A stretch of DNA of 64,000 bases from Caldivirga sp. (lineage in GTDB: Archaea; Thermoproteota; Thermoprotei; Thermoproteales; Thermocladiaceae): contig NZ_JAGDXD010000004.1 in the NCBI RefSeq assembly GCF_023256255.1, positions 1-64,000 on the forward strand, in the 5' to 3' direction. The notes beneath the pieces were generated by a model, which saw only the letters and a program-made list of their open reading frames with translations, searched no databases and was not told where the DNA came from. This document shows, in pieces, positions 45,392-61,341 of this stretch (position 1 is its first letter; each line of letters opens with the position of its first letter). A program made the position numbers and the translations under genes.

Positions 45392-45763
45392 GTGGCTGAA
45401 TACCTTAAGGACAATGCCTTAGATTTCTTAAGGGAGGCGGAGGATGACTTAAAGAATGGCAAGTATAATTTAGCGATATTTCACTTGGAGCAGGCACTTC
45501 AATTGGCATTGAAGTATAAGTTATTTCAGTTAACTGGAAGCTTTCAGAAAACCCATGATATAGTAGCCTTACTAGATCAGGTAATTGAATTAACTAATAA
45601 TGAGAATTTAAGGAATACTAGAATTAATGAGGCTGTAGCGTTGAGCCTGTTAAGGCAAGCCTACATAGCATCCAGATACCTACCTTATAAGTATGATGAG
45701 GCCACGGTAAGAAAAGTTTACCTCCTAGTTAAGGTGATTTTAAGTGAACTTGGTATTGCGTGA
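45392..45763 (+). CDS. HEPN-domain protein (toxin-type partner)
   Basis: The 123-residue, all-helical protein matches the HEPN family: AEYLKDNALDFLREAEDDLKNGKYNLAIFHLEQALQLALKY near 2-42, THDIVALLDQVIELT near 52, and a C-terminal EAVALSLLRQAYIASRYLPYKYDEATV segment near 77-103. The R-x4-6-H ribonuclease motif is not clearly complete (RQAYIASRY), so catalytic activity is uncertain. The downstream nucleotidyltransferase overlaps it by 20 bp. HEPN/MNT pairs are a widespread archaeal toxin-antitoxin type. The start is GTG 45392. Confidence 0.88.
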   Translation: MAEYLKDNALDFLREAEDDLKNGKYNLAIFHLEQALQLALKYKLFQLTGSFQKTHDIVALLDQVIELTNNENLRNTRINEAVALSLLRQAYIASRYLPYKYDEATVRKVYLLVKVILSELGIA

Positions 45764-46094
45764 ACACTGGTTAAGGAGACTTGAGGTTTTAAGGAACGCT
45801 AAAGCCTACGTTAAAAGAATTAAGGAAATCTGCGTGAATGAAATAGACCCAGAATGTAGGGTCATTTTATTTGGATCAGTAGCTAAGGGTACCTATAGGA
45901 TTGATAGTGACGTTGATGTACTTGTTATAACAAGCAGAGCTACGGATGCATGGAGTAGGGCTAAAATAGCCAACATGATACATGAGAAACTTGGGGTTTA
46001 CGATCCCCTAGAGCTTCATGTAATTACAATGAGCGAGTTCGAGAATTGGTATAAAAGATTCATGGACGTTTACGAAGAAGTGAACTTTCCTTAA
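45744..46094 (+). CDS. MNT-type nucleotidyltransferase (antitoxin-type partner)
   Basis: The 116-residue protein carries the minimal nucleotidyltransferase motif GSVAKGTYRIDSDVDVLVI near 48-66 (GS-x9-DxD) in a short alpha/beta fold. Such MNT proteins neutralise HEPN partners, in some cases by AMPylating them. It overlaps the HEPN gene by 20 bp. The frame begins at GTG 45744, but a TTG a few codons later could be the real start. Length is standard for the family. Confidence 0.88.
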   Translation: MNLVLREHWLRRLEVLRNAKAYVKRIKEICVNEIDPECRVILFGSVAKGTYRIDSDVDVLVITSRATDAWSRAKIANMIHEKLGVYDPLELHVITMSEFENWYKRFMDVYEEVNFP

Positions 46095-46372: not shown

Positions 46373-46537
46373 GTGCCTCTGGTGGTTAGGGGGAGGGTTG
46401 AGGTTAGGAGCTCGAGGGGTGGTAGGTATAGGTGGTTGGGTATTTACCTAGGTAATGTGCCTGAGTTGGAGAAGTACCGTGGCAGGGGCGTGTGCATAGT
46501 CATCTACACACCAGAGGAGTGTAGGATAGGTGATTAA
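46373..46537 (+). CDS. Small protein encoded directly upstream of tnpB
   Basis: A 54-residue, basic, beta-rich protein (RGRVEVRSSRGGRYRWLGIY, LGNVPELEKYRGRGVCIVIY, TPEECRIGD). Its start is GTG 46373 with AAATTTATTAATT near 46343-46355 about 25 nt upstream, so it is probably the first gene of the element transcript. It overlaps the tnpB frame by 8 bp. A decayed homologue lies at 35749 beside another TnpB remnant, so the association is recurrent. The fold is unassigned; a small swapped-hairpin (AbrB-like) DNA-binding domain would fit the size and strand pattern but is not shown. Confidence 0.6.
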   Translation: MPLVVRGRVEVRSSRGGRYRWLGIYLGNVPELEKYRGRGVCIVIYTPEECRIGD

Positions 46538-47765
46538 CGTGTTGGTTAGGACTGTTAAGCTTAGGGTTAGGGTTAACCATGAAGTGTACTTCGCACTTAA
46601 GGAGGTTGAGGGGGAGTATAGGGGGATACTGGAGGATGCGTTGGAGTACGGATTGAGAAGTGGGGTTAACTCGTTCGTGATGCTCAAGGCCGGTATTTAT
46701 GGGGCTGAGAGGGAGAAGCATGGGGGCTTACCGTCACATTACATATATACTGCATGTGAGGATGCTTCGATGAGGCTAAAAAGCTTCCTCAAGCTGAGGA
46801 GGCTCGGTAGGGCTTACACTGATAGGCCCGAGTTAAGGAGTGTGACGGTACACCTCGACGATCACCTGTGGAGGTTTGGGCTTGACGCCATACGTGTAGC
46901 CACTAAACGTGGTTGGGTGGGGCTTGAGCCACAGTACCATAAGCTCTTCTGGATGTACCTCAACGGTGGTTGGGGGTTGGCTAGTGAGGCTAGGTTTAAA
47001 CTGTTGGAGGGGAACTTTGTTGAGTTCTTCATAGTTTTTAAGAAGGATGAGCCTAAACCTTATGAACCAAAGGGTTTCATCCCAGTTGATCTCAATGAGA
47101 ATTCAGTCTCTGTATTACTTGATGAAGAACCTATCCTTTTAGAGACCAACACCAAGAAAATTACTCTAGGCTATGAGTATAGGAGGTGGAGAATTGAGAA
47201 AGGGAGGTCCACTAAGGATAGGGATGTAAGGAGGAAGTTAAAGAAGCTGAGGGAGAGGGATAAAAAAGCTGATGCTAGGAGGAAATTGGCTAAGTTAATC
47301 GTTATGGAGGCTTATGAGAGTAGGAGCGCCATAGTCCTTGAGAACCTGCCTAAGAGGGCTCCGGAGCACATGGTTAAGGGTGTGAAGGATAAGCAGCTTA
47401 GGTTGAGGATCTACCACTCAGCCTTCTCCTCAATGAAGAATGCCATCATCGAGAAGGCTAGGGAATACGGAGTACCAGTAATGCTCGTAAACCCATCCCA
47501 CACCTCCACAACCTGCCCAATCCACGGGGCTAGAATCAACTACCGGCCCAATGGGAGCAATGCTCCAAGGGTCGGCAAATGCCCCGTGGGTGGTGAACTT
47601 TGGCATAGGGACGTGGCCGCACTATACAACCTACTGAGGAAGGCCGGAGATGGGAGGCCCATGCCGTTGGCCTCGACCGGGCCCCATGACCCACACGTGA
47701 TCAATATGAGCGTGTGGCCGAGGGCCAAGTCCCTACACTCAATCATGAGTGAAATGAAAGTGTAG
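46530..47765 (+). mobile_element. tnpB: TnpB-family nuclease of an IS200/IS605-type element (no TnpA)
   Basis: The 411-residue protein has the RuvC-like triad expected for TnpB: Asp187 (FIPVDLNENSVSVLL), Glu271 (AIVLENLPKR) and Asp361 (LWHRDVAALYNLL). A basic linker (RRKLKKLRERDKKADARRKLAKLI) lies near 234-257. The zinc-ribbon region is divergent: CPIHG near 329 and CPVGG near 351, where canonical TnpB has CxxC twice. No tnpA is nearby, so mobility would need a TnpA elsewhere. TnpB proteins are RNA-guided nucleases, with a guide RNA usually coming from the 3' end of the gene. The start is GTG 46530 or GTG 46539. Confidence 0.85.
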
Positions 47766-48190: not shown

Positions 48191-48467
48191 TATCATTTAG
48201 CCCTTAATAGGCTCCTTAAAAGGTTTCCCTCTTGAGACTTAATACCTACATTACAGAGACAACAGTAAGGAACCTTATTGATTGCCATAAATGCGTTTAT
48301 GCCTTTGTACTCTTTCCGTCACTAGGAATGATGTAATGAAAACAATCACCCTCAGGTAATGGTATTACTCATTACTCCACTATTCATTGTACCCTCATGG
48401 GTACCTAACTTGTTAGGTTAAGTATGGGAATAAAATGCTTATATACGTCTGGCTAAACATTTACTGT

Positions 48468-49136
48468 ATGTCGACTGGAGAAGAGGGACCTAGCCTTATT
48501 AGTGAGGATGAGATTAAGAGCGAAATTACGCGTGTAATGAAGGCGCTGTACGAGAGGGGGTTAGTGTCTGCACTTGGGGGTAATGTTAGTGCAAGGGTGC
48601 CGGGAGCTAATGAGTTTTGGATAACACCGAGTGGTGTCTTTAAAGGTGCTGTTAATGTTGATGACTTAGTCAAGGTTGACTTAGATGGTAATGTGGTTGA
48701 GGGTGTGCTTAGGCCGTCAACTGAGACTCCCTTCCATGCGGCCATATATAAGGTTAGGCCTGATGTGAATGCCGTTATTCACGCGCATAACCCAGTTACG
48801 TTAGGGTTGGCATTAGCTGGTGTTAACCTGAAGCCTATATCAGTTGAGGCTATTATGACATTGAGGAAGGTTGAGGTTGTTCCCTTTGCCTTTCCTGGAA
48901 CAGACCAGTTAGCTAAACTGGTTTCTGAGGCTGCACTTAAGGGTGCGCGTGCAATAATATTGATGAACCATGGTGTAGTGGGTATGGGGGCTAATTTACT
49001 TGAAGCTGAGGCAGTAGTAGAGACCCTTGAGGAGGTTGCAATGGCGCAATTCGTAGCGATGGCGTTGGGTAAGGAACCACCGGTTATACCTGAAAAGGAT
49101 GTTGAACTCTACATGAAGTTGTACTTCCAGGGTTAG
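48468..49136 (+). CDS. Class II aldolase, probable L-rhamnulose/L-fuculose-1-phosphate aldolase
   Basis: The 222-residue protein is a class II (zinc) aldolase/adducin-fold enzyme: ERGLVSALGGNVSARV near 28-43, FWITPSGVFKG near 49, the zinc ligands in VIHAHNP near 106 and LMNHGVVGMG near 170, and a catalytic glutamate in STETPFHAA near 86. It would split L-rhamnulose 1-phosphate to DHAP and L-lactaldehyde. That substrate is inferred from the kinase and isomerase downstream. I start it at ATG 48468, with GCTTATATAC at 48436-48445 about 27 nt upstream. The longer frame to 48435 is unlikely. It is the first gene of the cluster. Confidence 0.85.
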   Translation: MSTGEEGPSLISEDEIKSEITRVMKALYERGLVSALGGNVSARVPGANEFWITPSGVFKGAVNVDDLVKVDLDGNVVEGVLRPSTETPFHAAIYKVRPDVNAVIHAHNPVTLGLALAGVNLKPISVEAIMTLRKVEVVPFAFPGTDQLAKLVSEAALKGARAIILMNHGVVGMGANLLEAEAVVETLEEVAMAQFVAMALGKEPPVIPEKDVELYMKLYFQG

Positions 49137-49145
49137 GTGAATAAT

Positions 49146-51011
49146 ATGAGTGAGTGGTATGGTTACGTGGGAAAGATACTTGAGGTTGATTTAAGCAGTG
49201 GCAGAACTAAGATTAGGGAATTGAAAGAAGATGAAGCTGACATGTTCATAGGTGGTATTGGCCTTGCTGCTAAGATAATGTTTGATGAAGTTGATCCAAG
49301 GGTTGAACCCTTTAGCCCAGATAACGTCCTAGTATTCATGACAGGGCCATTAACTGGTACAATGGTTCAATGCAGTGGCCGTTACGTGGTGGCTGCTAAG
49401 TCGCCATTAACCATGGCTTGGGGTGAAGCCCATGCATCAGGCTTTTGGGGTGTTGAACTTAAGAAAGCCGGCTTCGACGGTATAATAATTAAGGGTAAGT
49501 CAAGTAACCCAGTTTACTTATACATACATGATGGGGAGGTTGAAATCCGTGATGCATCTAAGTACTGGGGCTTAACAACTGTTGAAACAGACCTCGGCTT
49601 AAAGAGTGATTTAGGAGATAAGGCAGTACGTGTGGCTGCAATAGGCCCAGCTGGTGAGAGACTTGTTAGGTACGCCATAATTGCCTCAGACATAACCCCA
49701 GATGGACCTAGGGTGGCGGGTAGGACAGGGATGGGGGCTGTCATGGGTTCAAAGAACCTTAAGGCTATTGTTGTTAAGGGTAATGGGCAGATTAGGATTA
49801 AGGAGCCCGAGAAGCTTAGAAGTAACATTAATAGGCTTCTACCTTACATACTTTCTTACCCAACGACGCAACTCTACTCAATATATGGTACTGCAGGTGA
49901 GGTTGAGGAATTCCATGAGTATGGTGACATGCCTATAAAGAATTTCACAGTGGGTAAGTGGGATGGTATACTTAATATAAGTGGCAGGGCTTTTAGGGAG
50001 AAGGGCATCGTGAAGGCCCATAGGGCATGCTGGGCATGCCCCATACACTGCTGGAAGTACGTTGAGGTAAATAATGTTAAAGGCAGAGGTCCTGAATACG
50101 AGACTATTGCCTCATTAGGCTCAATGCTGATGATAGATGATCCCTACTACATAGCTGAGGCAAATGATCTATGCAATAAGTATGGTATAGACACAATATC
50201 AACCGGAGGTACTATTGCATGGGCTATTGAGAGCTTTGAGAAGGGGTTATTGACTAAGGAGGATACTGGTGGATTAGAGCTTAAGTGGGGTGATAAGGAA
50301 ACTGTACTTAAGCTCATAGAACTTATAGGGAAACGTGAGGGTTTCGGTAAGTTACTTGGGGAGGGGTGCCGTGTAGCTTCAAGGAGTGTAGGTAGGGGTA
50401 CTGAGAAGTACTGCATGCACGTTAAGGGTACTGAAATGCCGATGCATGATCCAAGGGCCTTCAAGGGTATGGGGCTTCAATACGCAACGTCAAACAGGGG
50501 TGCTGACCATCTTCAGGGTTTAACATTCAGGATTGAGCAGGGTGAGAGGATAACGGACTTGAAGATTTACGAGAGGTATGACAGGGTCTCCTACATTGGT
50601 AAAGGACGCGTGGTAGCCACTATGGAGACTTGGCACGAGGTCCTTGAGTCACTGGTAATATGTAAGTTCATAAGTATACCACCATTACACTTAGCTGGAA
50701 TGTACACTTTAGTGACGGGAAGGAAGAAGACACTGCAGGACCTTTTAACTGCCGGTAGGCGTATATTCACGTTGAAGAGAATGTTCAATGTAATAAACGG
50801 TATAAGTAGGAAGGATGATACATTACCTGAAAGGTTCCTGAAGGAGCCATTAAGTGAAGGTGGGGCTAGAGGACAGGTTGTTGAACTTGAACCCATGCTT
50901 AACGAGTACTACAACTACATGGGTTGGGATGAGAATGGTATACCAACTAGGGAGACCCTAAAAGAATTAGGAATATTACCAATAGTGGAGAGATTCATGA
51001 ATAATAAGTGA
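49146..51011 (+). CDS. aor: Aldehyde:ferredoxin oxidoreductase (tungstopterin AOR family)
   Basis: The 621-residue protein matches AOR from start to end: YVGKILEVDLSSGRTKI, FIGGIGLAAKIMFDEVDP, GRTGMGAVMGSKNLKAIVVKG near 192-212, and the [4Fe-4S] ligands CWACPIHC near 295-302. A further cysteine lies in LVICKF near 500, with YATSNRGADHLQG near 455. The enzyme oxidises aldehydes to acids using ferredoxin and a tungsten bis-pterin. Given its neighbours, L-lactaldehyde is the likely substrate. I use ATG 49146, with AGGTGA at 49134-49139 as ribosome-binding site; GTG 49137 is the alternative. It overlaps the kinase gene by 4 bp. Confidence 0.92.
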   Translation: MSEWYGYVGKILEVDLSSGRTKIRELKEDEADMFIGGIGLAAKIMFDEVDPRVEPFSPDNVLVFMTGPLTGTMVQCSGRYVVAAKSPLTMAWGEAHASGFWGVELKKAGFDGIIIKGKSSNPVYLYIHDGEVEIRDASKYWGLTTVETDLGLKSDLGDKAVRVAAIGPAGERLVRYAIIASDITPDGPRVAGRTGMGAVMGSKNLKAIVVKGNGQIRIKEPEKLRSNINRLLPYILSYPTTQLYSIYGTAGEVEEFHEYGDMPIKNFTVGKWDGILNISGRAFREKGIVKAHRACWACPIHCWKYVEVNNVKGRGPEYETIASLGSMLMIDDPYYIAEANDLCNKYGIDTISTGGTIAWAIESFEKGLLTKEDTGGLELKWGDKETVLKLIELIGKREGFGKLLGEGCRVASRSVGRGTEKYCMHVKGTEMPMHDPRAFKGMGLQYATSNRGADHLQGLTFRIEQGERITDLKIYERYDRVSYIGKGRVVATMETWHEVLESLVICKFISIPPLHLAGMYTLVTGRKKTLQDLLTAGRRIFTLKRMFNVINGISRKDDTLPERFLKEPLSEGGARGQVVELEPMLNEYYNYMGWDENGIPTRETLKELGILPIVERFMNNK

Positions 51012-52519
51012 GAGCGCTCATGGATTCAGTAGTAATGTTGGCTATAGACGTAGGTGCAAGTGGAGGCAAGGCTATTGCGGGGGTATTGGACTTGAAGGAA
51101 CTTAAGTTAACCATTGATGAATTATACAGGTTCCCCAACCAAATGATTAAGGTTGATAACCACCTGTACTGGAATGTGCTTCAACTATGGGGTGAAGTTA
51201 AGAATTCGATTAAAGTAGCCTTAAGAAAGTATAAGGGTAAGTTAACCTCAGTGGGTATTGATACTTGGGGTGTTGACTTCGCACTGTTGGATAACCACGA
51301 CGAATTAGTGGGCCTACCTTACGCTTACAGGGATCCTATGACTGAAGGATTAATGAGTGAAGTCTTCAGTAAGGTACCTAAGGAAGTAATATACAGTAGG
51401 ACTGGTATACAATTCATGCGTATTAACACCCTCTATCAACTTTATGCCTTAGTTAAATTAAATTCACCTAAACTTAGGATAGCTAAGTCAATGCTAATGA
51501 TACCTGACTTACTTAATTACTGGTTAAGCGGCGTTAAGGTTAATGAGTACACTAATGCATCAACAACTCAATTCCTTGATGCTAGGAGCAGAAAGTGGTG
51601 TATGGACATATTGGAGAAGCTCAATATACCAACCAACATCCTCCTTGAAATAGTCAACGCCGGTTCCGTTTTAGGTAACTTAAGAAGGGATATTGTTGAA
51701 GAGATGGGTGAGAAGGCAGGGAAGGATATAAGTGTAATAGCGCCAGCAACACATGATACTGCCTCAGCAGTGGCAGCTGGACCAATGATTGATGAAAACA
51801 CTGGATATGTGAGTTCAGGAACCTGGAACCTTGTTGGAGTAGAGTTAAGTGAACCCTTAATTAATGAACAAGCAATGCTAAGTAACTTCACCAATGAAGG
51901 TGGTGCCTTTGGGACAATTACTTTCTTAAGAAACATGCAGGGCATGTGGATAATACAGGAGATTAGGAGGATAATGATGGATTTAAGTGGAAGAGAGTAC
52001 ACTTACGATGAGTTAGTTAACCTTGCTATTAAGGCTGAGGAAACTGGATCTTTCATAGATGTTGATGATCCAAGATTTCTGGCTCCAATAAACATGATTA
52101 ATGAGATACATGGTTATCTTAAGGAAACTGGACAAAGGGAACCAGGTAGTTTAGGTGAGTTAATTAGACTGATTATAAGTAGTATAGCGTTGAAGCATAG
52201 GTACATATTTGAGAAGGCGACTAAAATAACAGGACGGGGGCTGAGGAGAATTAACATATTTGGTGGTGGTTCTAGAAACAACCTGATGAACCAATTAACA
52301 GCTAATGTAATGGGGATTCCTGTTTATGCAGGGCCTGAGGAATCAACATCCATCGGCAACATACTTATTCAAGCGTCAGGTATGGGCATTATTAAGTCTA
52401 TTCATGAGCTTAGATCCATAGTTAGGAATTCATTCAATATCAGAGTCTTTGAGCCTAAGGATGAGGAGAAGTACGATGACATGTATTCCATGTTCATAAC
52501 CAGGCTTAACCTACCCTAA
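51008..52519 (+). CDS. FGGY-family carbohydrate kinase, probable L-rhamnulokinase
   Basis: The 503-residue protein starts with the ATPase motif AIDVGASGGKAIAG. It has SVGIDTWGVDFALLDNHDEL near 78, PYAYRDPMTEG near 100, RTGIQFMRINTLYQLYAL near 130, a GYVSSGTWNLVGVEL phosphate-binding loop near 266 and FGGGSRNNLMNQLTANVMGIPV near 418. The order and the GIDTWGVDF motif are those of rhamnulokinase. It would phosphorylate L-rhamnulose on C1. It overlaps aor by 4 bp. The start is GTG 51008 or ATG 51020 or 51032. Confidence 0.9.
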   Translation: MRALMDSVVMLAIDVGASGGKAIAGVLDLKELKLTIDELYRFPNQMIKVDNHLYWNVLQLWGEVKNSIKVALRKYKGKLTSVGIDTWGVDFALLDNHDELVGLPYAYRDPMTEGLMSEVFSKVPKEVIYSRTGIQFMRINTLYQLYALVKLNSPKLRIAKSMLMIPDLLNYWLSGVKVNEYTNASTTQFLDARSRKWCMDILEKLNIPTNILLEIVNAGSVLGNLRRDIVEEMGEKAGKDISVIAPATHDTASAVAAGPMIDENTGYVSSGTWNLVGVELSEPLINEQAMLSNFTNEGGAFGTITFLRNMQGMWIIQEIRRIMMDLSGREYTYDELVNLAIKAEETGSFIDVDDPRFLAPINMINEIHGYLKETGQREPGSLGELIRLIISSIALKHRYIFEKATKITGRGLRRINIFGGGSRNNLMNQLTANVMGIPVYAGPEESTSIGNILIQASGMGIIKSIHELRSIVRNSFNIRVFEPKDEEKYDDMYSMFITRLNLP

Positions 52520-52576
52520 CCCGTTTAATGATTAATGATTGCTATAACTTAAAAGTAAACTCATGCTAATCCACCA

Positions 52577-53695
52577 GTGGTAGGCATGAGCATAAGCAGG
52601 TTAAGATCAGCCTACTCTGGTTTCATGGAGGGTAAGACTGTTGATCAATTCTTCAGCGAGTACAATGTTAAGTTCGCTGCAGGCACATGGACCGCCGGGG
52701 ATTTCTCAGACAGATTCAATAGGGGTGGTTATTTCCCAAACCTACCAAGGGGGCTAGTGGATCAATTGAGGAGAATAAAGGAGGCTGGGATTGAGGGGGT
52801 TGTGCCCATAGATGCTCAATTCTTTGATGATAACCTTAAGGTTAAGGAGGACTTAATAAGTGAGGTTAAGGCAACTGCGAGTGAGTTAGGCCTTAAGATA
52901 GCTGGGTTAGGAATGGATATTTCAGGCTTCCACGTGTTTAAACTAGGTTCATTAACAAACCCTGACCCCAAGGTGAGGGAACTAGCCTTAAGCACTCTTA
53001 CTCAGAGCCTTGACGTTGCCCATAGCCTTGGCTTAGATTCAGTATCGCTTTGGCTTGGCCCAGATGGATGGGATTATAGCCTTGAGTCCAATTATGGTAA
53101 GAAGATTAAGGAGCTTTACGAGGGGTTACTCAGCCTAGGTAAGGAGGCTCATAGACTGGGCATTAAGTCCTTTGGGCTTGAAGCCAAGCCTAAGGAACCT
53201 AGGGAAGGTAATCTAATCATACCCACATCCCACGTGTCCATAATACTTGCAAGTAGGTTAAACAGTGATTTAGGTTCAAGACTATTCGGAATAACCATAG
53301 ACTATGGTCATGAATTAATGTACGCTGTTGAACCAGCCTACACTGTTTACTTAGCTAGGGAACAAGGGGTCTCAGTATCCACAGTACACATTAACACGGC
53401 TAAGTGGCACAGTAATGATGAGGATAGGGTGGTTGGAACAGGGGATGCGTGGCATTTCGTGGATTTCCTCTATGCGCTACTGGATACTGGTTACTCAGGC
53501 TGGTTTACCCTGGATCAATTCACGTATAGGCTTAACCCAGTGGATGGGTTGAGGCTATCGAAGGAATTATTCGCAAACCTGTATAAGAAGGCGCTTGCAC
53601 TATACATCTCCAAGGATGAGTTTGAGGGCATTAGATCCACCGGTGATCAGGCTAAGGTACTTGACTACGTTAAGAGAATAATGTATGGCTTATGA
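52577..53695 (+). CDS. Sugar isomerase, probable L-rhamnose isomerase (xylose-isomerase-like TIM barrel)
   Basis: The 372-residue protein fits the rhamnose-isomerase type found in Pseudomonas stutzeri and Thermotoga: FAAGTWTAGDFSDRFNRGGYFPN near 33-55, HSLGLDSVSLWLGPDGWDY near 150, KSFGLEAKPKEPREGNLIIPTSH near 196 and TIDYGHELMYA near 236. HINTAKWHSNDEDRVVGTGD near 270-290 carries metal and substrate residues. It would convert L-rhamnose to L-rhamnulose. TATA-like ACTTAAAAGTA near 52548 suggests its own promoter; the start is GTG 52577 or ATG 52586. It follows the kinase after 57 bp. Confidence 0.9.
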   Translation: MVGMSISRLRSAYSGFMEGKTVDQFFSEYNVKFAAGTWTAGDFSDRFNRGGYFPNLPRGLVDQLRRIKEAGIEGVVPIDAQFFDDNLKVKEDLISEVKATASELGLKIAGLGMDISGFHVFKLGSLTNPDPKVRELALSTLTQSLDVAHSLGLDSVSLWLGPDGWDYSLESNYGKKIKELYEGLLSLGKEAHRLGIKSFGLEAKPKEPREGNLIIPTSHVSIILASRLNSDLGSRLFGITIDYGHELMYAVEPAYTVYLAREQGVSVSTVHINTAKWHSNDEDRVVGTGDAWHFVDFLYALLDTGYSGWFTLDQFTYRLNPVDGLRLSKELFANLYKKALALYISKDEFEGIRSTGDQAKVLDYVKRIMYGL

Positions 53696-59436: not shown

Positions 59437-61341
59437 ATGGTTTCACTCTCAAGTGGTGTTTTGCTTAGTAAAGTCTACGGTGGCTTATTAGGTAAGAATG
59501 CTGGTGGTAGTCTTGGTACTCCTTATGAGAGGGGGATTGGGCAGGAGGATTTGATTGATGTTAGGCTTGAGCCTAAGCTTTACCCTAATGATGATTTTGA
59601 GGTTCAGATGGCTTGGCTTAGGCTTATTGAGGACAGGGGATTAGACTTAACTGAGCATGACCTTGCGCAATGCTGGCTCGATTGCATTCACTATAATTGG
59701 GATGAGTATGGTTTAAGCAAGAGGAATCTGAGACTAGGCATATTGCCACCAATGTCCGGCTTCTTCAATAACTGGTTTAGACACTGCATGGGCTCACCCA
59801 TTAGGTCTGAGGTTTGGGCAATGATAGCCCCAGGCCTACCTGACGTGGCCGCTGAGTACGCCTTTAGGGATGCGATTGTTGACCATGGTGGTGGTGAGTC
59901 AGTTTACGGTGAAGTCTTCAATACTGTACTGGAGTCTTTAGCATTCATTGAGAGTGACTTGGTTAAACTCATTAAGCATGCGTTAAGCTACATACCACAG
60001 CATAGTTTAACATATAAGTCAATAGAGAAGGCCCTTGAGGCCCATGATAAGGGCTTGGATTTAAGGGAGGCTAGGAGGAGCATTATTGAGCTTGCACCCG
60101 CCGAGTACCGTAGGATAGCGCAGTACTCACCCATTAACCTAGGCTTCGAGGTATTGGGCCTACTCTACGGTAATGGTTTCGTAGACACCATGATGAAGAC
60201 GATTAGCCTAGGCTACGACACCGACTGCACGGCAGCTACTGTGGGTGCAGTGTTGGGTATTATTCATGGTAGGGACTACATACCCCCAGATTACGTTAAG
60301 GTTTACGAGGAAGTTACAACCAATGAATCATGGGGTGGCGTCTCCAATATTAGGGCTAATAGGACTGTGGCTGAACTGGCTAATAGGATCATTAAGGTTA
60401 CGTACAGGTTACTCGCTAAGCATAATGACAAGGTTACCGTAGGGGGTATGGGTGATGTCACTTGGCTCATAGACCCATTTACAATAAAGCCCAGTGGATC
60501 ATGGTTAAACTATAAGCCCAACACCTGGACCCTTAGGTTCACTGGAATTGAGGCTACTGTTGAGTATCCAAGTGGCCCGGTGCTTAAGCCTAATGTTGAA
60601 TTACCAATACTAATTACCGTTAGGAGCCTTAGGTTAAGCCCAGTTAACCTAGGTTATATAGTCCACGGCATTAACCCCAAGGCGTATCAAATAAACCCAG
60701 TAAGTGGGGGATTGCTTATTGAACCTGGTTCAGAAGCCAGGGTTGAGTTTAGGGTTAGGTTAATTAACCTTAATGAACTAGGCATTGTGGAGCATCCCGT
60801 GATCCAATTCATTGCCATTGATTCACTAGAATCAATTAACGTAACCTTAACAATACTGCCCCCAGTGGTTTGGTTCATTAGTAGGGTTAGTGATGGGGAT
60901 GAGGATGTTGGAAGGTGGGTTGGTGAGGCTGCCGCTGGTGAGTGGGCTGCAGTGTATAGGGATGGCTATGACCTAGGCCTTGAGGATTTAATACCTAAGG
61001 GTTCCTCAATGGCTATTGTGGGTTTCATCAATAACCCAGGTGATTCAAGGATGATACACGTGGGTATTCCTAATAATGCACCGTACGCTAAACTATGGTT
61101 TAATGAAGAACCTATTGTTGAGTCCAGGGAGAAGTATGTGCTTAGGCCTAATTACGATGGGGATGGTAGGAATTACGCAGATGCAATTATGAAGCATGGG
61201 TGGAACACTGTTGCCATAAAGGTTAAGCGCATTGATGAACCAGTAAGCCTACACTTCATGATTAGTGAATCAGCCAAAAACCTACATAGGGGAGTAACCA
61301 ACGTAATACAGCATATGAGGCCAAGTTTGAAGCCTGACTAA
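59437..61341 (+). CDS. ADP-ribosylglycohydrolase-fold protein with beta-rich C-terminus
   Basis: The 634-residue protein has an N-terminal ADP-ribosylglycohydrolase domain (about 1-310): KVYGGLLGKNAGGSLGTPYERG near 12-33, NDDFEVQMAWLRLIED near 51 and LGYDTDCTAATVGAVLGIIHGRD near 253-275, which supplies the metal-binding acids. The C-terminal half (about 340-634) is beta-rich, with two sandwich-like modules. This fusion is seen in large ADPRG proteins of carbohydrate-degrading organisms, where the fold may act on glycosides rather than ADP-ribose. It is next to an ABC importer. TATA-like GCTTAAAAGCTTTTAAAC lies upstream at about 59399. Confidence 0.82.
   Translation: MVSLSSGVLLSKVYGGLLGKNAGGSLGTPYERGIGQEDLIDVRLEPKLYPNDDFEVQMAWLRLIEDRGLDLTEHDLAQCWLDCIHYNWDEYGLSKRNLRLGILPPMSGFFNNWFRHCMGSPIRSEVWAMIAPGLPDVAAEYAFRDAIVDHGGGESVYGEVFNTVLESLAFIESDLVKLIKHALSYIPQHSLTYKSIEKALEAHDKGLDLREARRSIIELAPAEYRRIAQYSPINLGFEVLGLLYGNGFVDTMMKTISLGYDTDCTAATVGAVLGIIHGRDYIPPDYVKVYEEVTTNESWGGVSNIRANRTVAELANRIIKVTYRLLAKHNDKVTVGGMGDVTWLIDPFTIKPSGSWLNYKPNTWTLRFTGIEATVEYPSGPVLKPNVELPILITVRSLRLSPVNLGYIVHGINPKAYQINPVSGGLLIEPGSEARVEFRVRLINLNELGIVEHPVIQFIAIDSLESINVTLTILPPVVWFISRVSDGDEDVGRWVGEAAAGEWAAVYRDGYDLGLEDLIPKGSSMAIVGFINNPGDSRMIHVGIPNNAPYAKLWFNEEPIVESREKYVLRPNYDGDGRNYADAIMKHGWNTVAIKVKRIDEPVSLHFMISESAKNLHRGVTNVIQHMRPSLKPD

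Follow-up and report, generated by a model that had tools for sequence, protein, structure and literature searches.

A conserved Caldivirga operon predicted to degrade a 6-deoxy-hexose, most likely L-fucose, with an aldehyde oxidoreductase probably acting on lactaldehyde

A contig of Caldivirga sp. (NZ_JAGDXD010000004.1, assembly GCF_023256255.1) carries, at positions 48468-53695 of the 64,000-nucleotide stretch that was analysed (the window), a row of four genes that raises two questions: which sugar do the encoded enzymes break down, and what is oxidized by the aldehyde:ferredoxin oxidoreductase (AOR) among them? Our answer, to which we assign a probability of roughly 0.7, is that the operon serves 6-deoxy-hexose catabolism ending in oxidation of lactaldehyde by the AOR, with L-fucose as the most likely sugar and L-rhamnose, or both sugars, as the alternative. 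The sequence itself shows the gene order, the protein families with their active-site motifs, the conservation, the lactate genes that adjoin the pair in other genera and the co-occurrence. The four genes are as follows.

48468-49136, plus strand: class II aldolase (FucA/AraD superfamily, PF00596), putative L-fuculose-1-phosphate (or L-rhamnulose-1-phosphate) aldolase
49137-51011, plus strand: AOR family protein (AFOR_N, AFOR_C), putative L-lactaldehyde:ferredoxin oxidoreductase
51008-52519, plus strand: FGGY kinase of the rhamnulokinase/fuculokinase group (TIGR02627, FGGY_N/FGGY_C), predicted to phosphorylate the C1 hydroxyl
52577-53695, plus strand: aldose isomerase of the xylose/rhamnose isomerase fold (PF01261), putative L-fucose or L-rhamnose isomerase

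Specifically, the aldolase stop codon TAG (49134-49136) directly abuts the GTG start of the AOR at 49137, the AOR and kinase genes overlap by 4 bases (51008-51011), and 57 bases separate the kinase from the isomerase. Alternative ATG starts lie at 49146 for the AOR and at 52586 for the isomerase. The identical four-gene order recurs in every one of the five genus genomes, and the other four share 92-98% identity with the window in the aldolase, 89-95% in the AOR, 74-88% in the kinase and 81-92% in the isomerase; an order kept in every genome at such identities is not a product of chance. An earlier account of this DNA (the preliminary description) had noted four consecutive genes with the first three tightly joined, and the open reading frames (ORFs), their junctions, the Pfam matches and the five genomes confirm it.

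In the route that we propose, the isomerase would convert the 6-deoxy-hexose to a ketose, the FGGY kinase would phosphorylate the ketose at C1, and the class II aldolase would split the ketose-1-phosphate into dihydroxyacetone phosphate (DHAP) and L-lactaldehyde. The AOR would then oxidize L-lactaldehyde to L-lactate with reduction of ferredoxin, and the lactate would probably pass to pyruvate through iron-sulfur (LutAB-like) enzymes or through a racemase and a flavoprotein. Because fuculose-1-phosphate and rhamnulose-1-phosphate both yield L-lactaldehyde, the end product does not decide the sugar, and the two questions can be taken separately.

With respect to the lactaldehyde step, the AOR is a full-length member of its family (Pfam AFOR_N 266 bits, cut-off 29.8; AFOR_C 462 bits, cut-off 27) and matches the solved structures 9mqx and 1aor with 469 and 429 bits. 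It shares both AFOR domains, together with the cluster and active-site motifs, with the known archaeal enzymes (P. furiosus AOR, FOR and WOR5; H. volcanii WOR83). The CxxCxxxC motif, a fourth, distal Cys, and the Glu and His motifs are present in all nine aldolase-linked AORs, and we take the roles of these residues to be those of their counterparts in P. furiosus AOR. Unlike the known enzymes, the operon AOR belongs to a separate clade that is fixed beside a class II aldolase. To our knowledge, the physiological substrate of many AOR-family enzymes is not firmly established, and among titles and abstract openings in the open-licence literature we found no report of L-lactaldehyde as a substrate of the family.

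The association of aldolase and AOR extends well beyond the genus. In a survey of 81 genomes of the class, all 11 close relatives of the aldolase (about 64% identity or more) have an AOR directly after them on the same strand, with the AOR running into a contig end in two cases (G054 and G061); around the next relative (55%, G064), no AOR was found within the 17 kb fetched. Nine of the 11 aldolase-linked AORs were placed in a tree (that of G002 and the truncated one of G061 were left out); in this tree of 22 rows they make up a single clade, supported at 100/100. The other sequences came from three AORs that lie near distant aldolases and from 10 of a further 18 AOR loci, the remaining eight having given no ORF under the filter; two of the rows are duplicates. 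Since the genome of the window contains seven further AOR matches, it is one specific AOR that has stayed with the aldolase. Neighbouring aldolase and AOR genes that are more distantly related also occur in G052, where an FGGY kinase accompanies them, and in G005 and G016. Separately, a row of a D-2-hydroxyacid dehydrogenase-like gene, an FGGY kinase and a class II aldolase recurs in the class (L081:5382-10344, L230:3907-7055 and L085:5459-8601), and in G052 it is followed by an AOR, which makes another aldolase-AOR association with different members.

What surrounds the pair in three other genera speaks to its substrate. In G045 it is accompanied by a CCG protein and a LUD/4Fe-4S protein resembling LutB/LdhH (LdhH 415 bits, LutB/LldF TIGR00273 346 bits, both below cut-off), and in G073 by a lactate racemase-like LarA (419 bits, cut-off 460). 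In G071, genes for EtfB, EtfA, a FAD oxidase closest to GlcD (303 bits) and LarA lie directly 5' of the pair (L219:352-7779), a candidate for a complete lactaldehyde-to-pyruvate module. The Acetobacterium-type EtfAB-lactate dehydrogenase with lactate racemase is a known system with a similar gene set; the G071 set differs in standing in one row with the aldolase-AOR pair. The joint presence of an aldolase giving DHAP and a hydroxyaldehyde, of an aldehyde oxidoreductase and of enzymes of lactate metabolism points to a course from lactaldehyde through lactate to pyruvate. Judged by this gene linkage, the most likely role of the AOR is the conversion of L-lactaldehyde to lactate, and the step would recur across related archaea. 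The proposal of the preliminary description that an AOR takes on L-lactaldehyde is thus well supported by genome comparison. We infer ferredoxin as the acceptor, tungsten rather than molybdenum, the direction of the reaction and every substrate.

In terms of the sugar, the aldolase is the first point of reference. It is a clear Aldolase_II protein (PF00596, 167 bits, 4.3e-49, above the curated Pfam cut-off), with an HxH within IHAHN from residue 104 and the His in MNHG from residue 166, and its nearest solved structures are the S. pneumoniae fuculose phosphate aldolases 4c24 and 4c25 (104.7 and 104.6 bits). No curated NCBIfam model tested reaches its cut-off on this protein; the best FucA model, NF040649, gives 120.6 bits (cut-off 250). 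No RhaD-type match occurs among its 39 PDB matches or the best 25 of its 31 NCBIfam matches. The genus also holds a second class II aldolase paralogue of about 41% identity (L332:7680-8270 and L333:5964-6530), which lies tightly 3' of an apparent FAD-dependent oxidoreductase gene.

Co-occurrence across the same 81 genomes, where shared ancestry inflates and confounds every count, supplies the second point. Isomerase orthologues (about 46% identity or more) are found in 17 genomes; 21 match at E 1e-10, and four of these were dropped at about 32% or less. The alpha-L-fucosidase family GH29 is strong (E 1e-30) in 16 genomes, all of which have the isomerase (19 at 1e-3, three dropped). The alpha-L-rhamnosidase family GH78 (E 1e-16) is present in 14, including one fragment at a contig end that was kept (17 at 1e-8, three dropped), and the isomerase is found in 13 of these. 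Counted by genus, the isomerase accompanies GH29 in 8/8 cases and GH78 in 6/7, so that the fucosidase tracks it better. Moreover, relatives of the E. coli-type fuculokinase scoring at least 300 bits occur in 10 genomes, nine of which have the isomerase; of the 12 genomes that carry the isomerase but do not belong to the window's genus, they cover nine. They reach up to 442 bits, and none passes the TIGR02628 cut-off (470.9); at E 1e-30 the count is 33, the rest being other FGGY kinases, those of the genus included.

The third point is a separate cluster that would handle rhamnose in the window's genus by other means. In G000 (contig C28), a GH78 gene is divergent from two others, which encode a zinc-type alcohol dehydrogenase and a member of the enolase superfamily (L227:4623-9657). 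The latter scores 656 bits on the L-rhamnonate dehydratase model NF011968, above its cut-off of 393, and 551 bits against 2oz3. This arrangement is repeated in G001, G002 and G003 (besides L227, the cluster is in loci L228, L284 and L285), and in G004 the GH78 and dehydratase genes sit on separate short contigs. Relatives of the dehydratase at 84% or more are found in nine of the 81 genomes, namely the five of the genus and four of genus g4. The g4 genomes have no isomerase, and close relatives of the dehydratase are found in no isomerase genome outside the window's genus. The best curated models of the alcohol dehydrogenase are threonine dehydrogenases, below cut-off, and its position suggests a rhamnose dehydrogenase.

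Taken together, these genes likely constitute a non-phosphorylated rhamnose route. Like the known route of this type (rhamnose dehydrogenase, RhmD), it would end in L-lactaldehyde, and unlike the operon, with which it shares no genes, it would proceed by oxidation and dehydration in place of isomerisation and phosphorylation. Because a rhamnonate dehydratase lies beside the rhamnosidase, the rhamnose that the rhamnosidase releases would most simply be degraded by this route, and the phosphorylated operon would then be free for fucose, or would take both sugars; with L-lactaldehyde as their common end point, the two routes could share the AOR. The preliminary description had read the operon as a phosphorylated L-rhamnose pathway, set off against the non-phosphorylated one, and had counted action on another sugar, such as fucose, as an outcome that would overturn this. 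The sequence of isomerase, FGGY kinase and class II aldolase is supported; the contrast in its stated form is not, with both types of gene in one genus, and for the sugar comparative genomics leans to L-fucose.

Several observations weigh against this assignment, and most of them are those that speak for L-rhamnose, in which case the operon would run through L-rhamnulose and L-rhamnulose-1-phosphate and the genus would have two rhamnose routes meeting at L-lactaldehyde. The kinase (FGGY_N 100 bits, FGGY_C 125 bits, both above the curated Pfam cut-offs) has rhamnulokinase TIGR02627 as by far its best curated model, at 472.6 bits (cut-off 527.95), and reaches only 132 bits, below cut-off, on fuculokinase TIGR02628. 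Among bacterial relatives of the kinase, 29 of 80 loci have a RhaA-like gene nearby and 15 of 80 a FucI-like gene, with these neighbour labels, as well as RhaD and RhaI, being our own reading of the sequences rather than a model scan. Its nearest solved structures run the other way, pneumococcal fuculose kinase FcsK (4c23, 324 bits) preceding RhaB (2cgj, 290 bits).

The isomerase gives comparable signals. Its xylose isomerase-like TIM barrel is recognized by Pfam (AP_endonuc_2, PF01261, 82.5 bits, 5.2e-23, above the curated cut-off), and no curated NCBIfam model tested reaches its cut-off, RhaI TIGR02635 giving 41 bits against 531. No FucI model appears among its Pfam and NCBIfam matches, with no genome-wide search for FucI, RhaA, RhaI or RhaD having been made. 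Seven residues that we take to be metal ligands (E202, D242, H245, H271, D281, D283 and D313) line up with their counterparts in four RhaI-like sequences and do not vary across 15 relatives; the set of Glu, Asp, His, His, Asp, Asp and Asp is the RhaI pattern, and where D242 and H271 stand in the alignment, xylose isomerase carries Glu and Asp. The AlphaFold model, built with 15 sequences, is a TIM barrel (pLDDT 82.9), and P. stutzeri L-rhamnose isomerase is among its top structural matches (Z 28.9, 3.3 A over 322 residues).

GH78 adds its weight on the same side through its presence in all five genus genomes and the 13 of 14 co-occurrence given above, and in G048 genes for an FGGY kinase and a GH106 rhamnosidase run towards the isomerase gene in convergent orientation. 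Three further points concern the scheme as a whole. The genus' own operon has no adjoining lactate genes; a LutB-like protein (352 bits, cut-off 445) is encoded elsewhere in G000 and G001. A palindrome upstream of the operon, described below, has no counterpart ahead of the GH29 and GH78 genes in those genus loci that were retrieved. Finally, FucA-type archaeal aldolases can be broad, since a portion of PMC9700705 describes a haloarchaeal FucA homologue as a ribulose-1-phosphate aldolase with broad aldehyde use.

Two further comparisons do not decide the substrate. In the structural comparison of the isomerase, xylose isomerases (Z 29.6), 3ktc (29.3) and the L-rhamnose isomerase tie within 1 Z unit. 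In a tree of 75 kinases from 80 fetched loci and the five genus kinases, the latter group with a bathyarchaeal kinase (59% identity) in a clade of their own, supported at 100/100 and nested in neither the RhaA-linked nor the FucI-linked groups.

Compared with the known pathways, the operon resembles the bacterial L-fucose pathway (FucI-FucK-FucA) in its isomerase, C1-kinase and class II aldolase that would yield DHAP and L-lactaldehyde, and in having FcsA and FcsK as the nearest solved relatives of aldolase and kinase. It differs in an isomerase of the xylose/rhamnose isomerase-like family and in an AOR for the aldehyde, where bacteria use an NAD-linked dehydrogenase or a reductase. With the bacterial L-rhamnose pathway (RhaA/RhaI-RhaB-RhaD) it shares the kinase model and the RhaI ligand pattern, and it differs in the low RhaI score, the lack of a RhaD-type aldolase and again the AOR. 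Set against the dedicated rhamnonate cluster, the equally high structural scores of xylose isomerases, the closer tracking by fucosidase and the fuculokinase-type kinases outside the genus, rhamnose is an unproven assignment that ranks below fucose; we regard it as unlikely, while still the strongest competitor.

Somewhat less probable again is one operon for both L-fucose and L-rhamnose, in which promiscuous enzymes would take both ketose-1-phosphates to DHAP and L-lactaldehyde. GH29 and GH78 each occur in the genus, and the part of PMC3245297 consulted describes rhamnulokinases and fuculokinases as a poorly resolved branch for which mixed specificities are suggested; the rhamnonate route makes the operon unnecessary for rhamnose. 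By judgement rather than computation, we would give fucose about half of the total, rhamnose a little over a quarter, both sugars about one part in seven, and another sugar the rest.

Improbable, in our estimate, is a pentulose-1-phosphate of the D-ribulose or L-xylulose type as the aldolase substrate, with the AOR turning glycolaldehyde into glycolate. Rhamnose isomerases accept pentoses, the G071 flavoprotein is closest to GlcD, and the haloarchaeal FucA homologue acts on ribulose-1-phosphate; the corresponding model scores 109 bits on the operon aldolase, far below its cut-off of 300, and lactate racemase and LutB/LdhH-like genes adjoin the pair. Methanogens feed coenzyme F420 synthesis through a FucA homologue and lactaldehyde dehydrogenase, and a pair supplying lactate for such biosynthesis instead of sugar breakdown is very improbable here given the attached lactate-metabolising genes, kinase and isomerase and a patchy distribution together with glycosidases.

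Returning to the operon itself, the sequence 5' of the aldolase and the kinase-isomerase gap contain three conserved elements.

48403-48418, strand not assigned: 16-base palindrome ACCTAACNNGTTAGGT, probable operator just 5' of the promoter (conserved in the genus)
48438-48445, plus strand: TATA-like box CTTATATA of the operon, read from the sequence, with a putative promoter function
52548-52555, plus strand: possible second TATA-like box CTTAAAAG ahead of the isomerase gene (conserved; putative function)

The aldolase start at 48468 is compatible with the TATA-like box at 48438-48445, which a longer aldolase ORF from 48435 would overlap, and this spacing suggests a transcript that is leaderless at 48468. 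A TTATATA core is kept at about the same position in all five genus genomes, as is CTTAAAA in the kinase-isomerase gap, which suggests that the isomerase gene may also be transcribed alone. The palindrome precedes the aldolase in all five genomes (perfect in G002-G004, one mismatch in G000 and G001). At up to two mismatches, a scan of 16 genus loci, GH78 and GH29 regions included, located it nowhere but before the operon, and six Markov-simulated 64-kb windows contained no such site; as an exact match in all 333 loci it again occurs only before the operon. A three-mismatch variant lies inside the kinase-isomerase gap of G003 and G004, and the remaining weak matches are at simulation level. As a regulon marker linking the operon to GH78 or GH29 the palindrome was rejected, its sites with up to two mismatches being confined to the operon.

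The genes upstream vary within the genus. In the window's genome, a TnpB-like protein with a Cas12f1-like TNB domain is encoded at 46530-47765, preceded at 45392-46094 by a HEPN gene that overlaps one for an MNT-like nucleotidyltransferase, probably a toxin-antitoxin pair of the HEPN-MNT type. A DapA-family aldolase gene lies upstream in G002 (L067:8037-8930) and a divergent gene for a sugar porter of the major facilitator superfamily in G001 (L066:16046-17437). On the far side, at 59437-61341, the window encodes a 634-residue ADP-ribosylglycohydrolase-family protein near ABC ATPase genes. Its relatives lie directly upstream of the operon and divergent in G003 (L068), and one gene away from a GH29-like gene in G045 (L320); a glycan role is possible.

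Building from the preferred assignment to L-fucose, a fuller scheme may tentatively be drawn, in which we have rather less than even confidence. In the window's genus and six others with the pair, which together span several families of the class, L-fucose would be degraded via a non-FucI isomerase of the xylose/rhamnose isomerase fold and a dedicated L-lactaldehyde:ferredoxin AOR subfamily, coupled to LarA and to EtfAB- or Lut-type lactate oxidation, with the lower half yielding reduced ferredoxin. Should the fucose reading hold, the operon isomerase would be an L-fucose isomerase outside the FucI family. Gene order across genera points to a physiological substrate for a clade of AORs, L-lactaldehyde, with lactate as the product. 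Thermoproteal archaea would have a phosphorylative route for deoxysugars, possibly with a non-FucI fucose isomerase, and would keep as reduced ferredoxin the energy that bacteria conserve as NADH or forgo by excreting propanediol.

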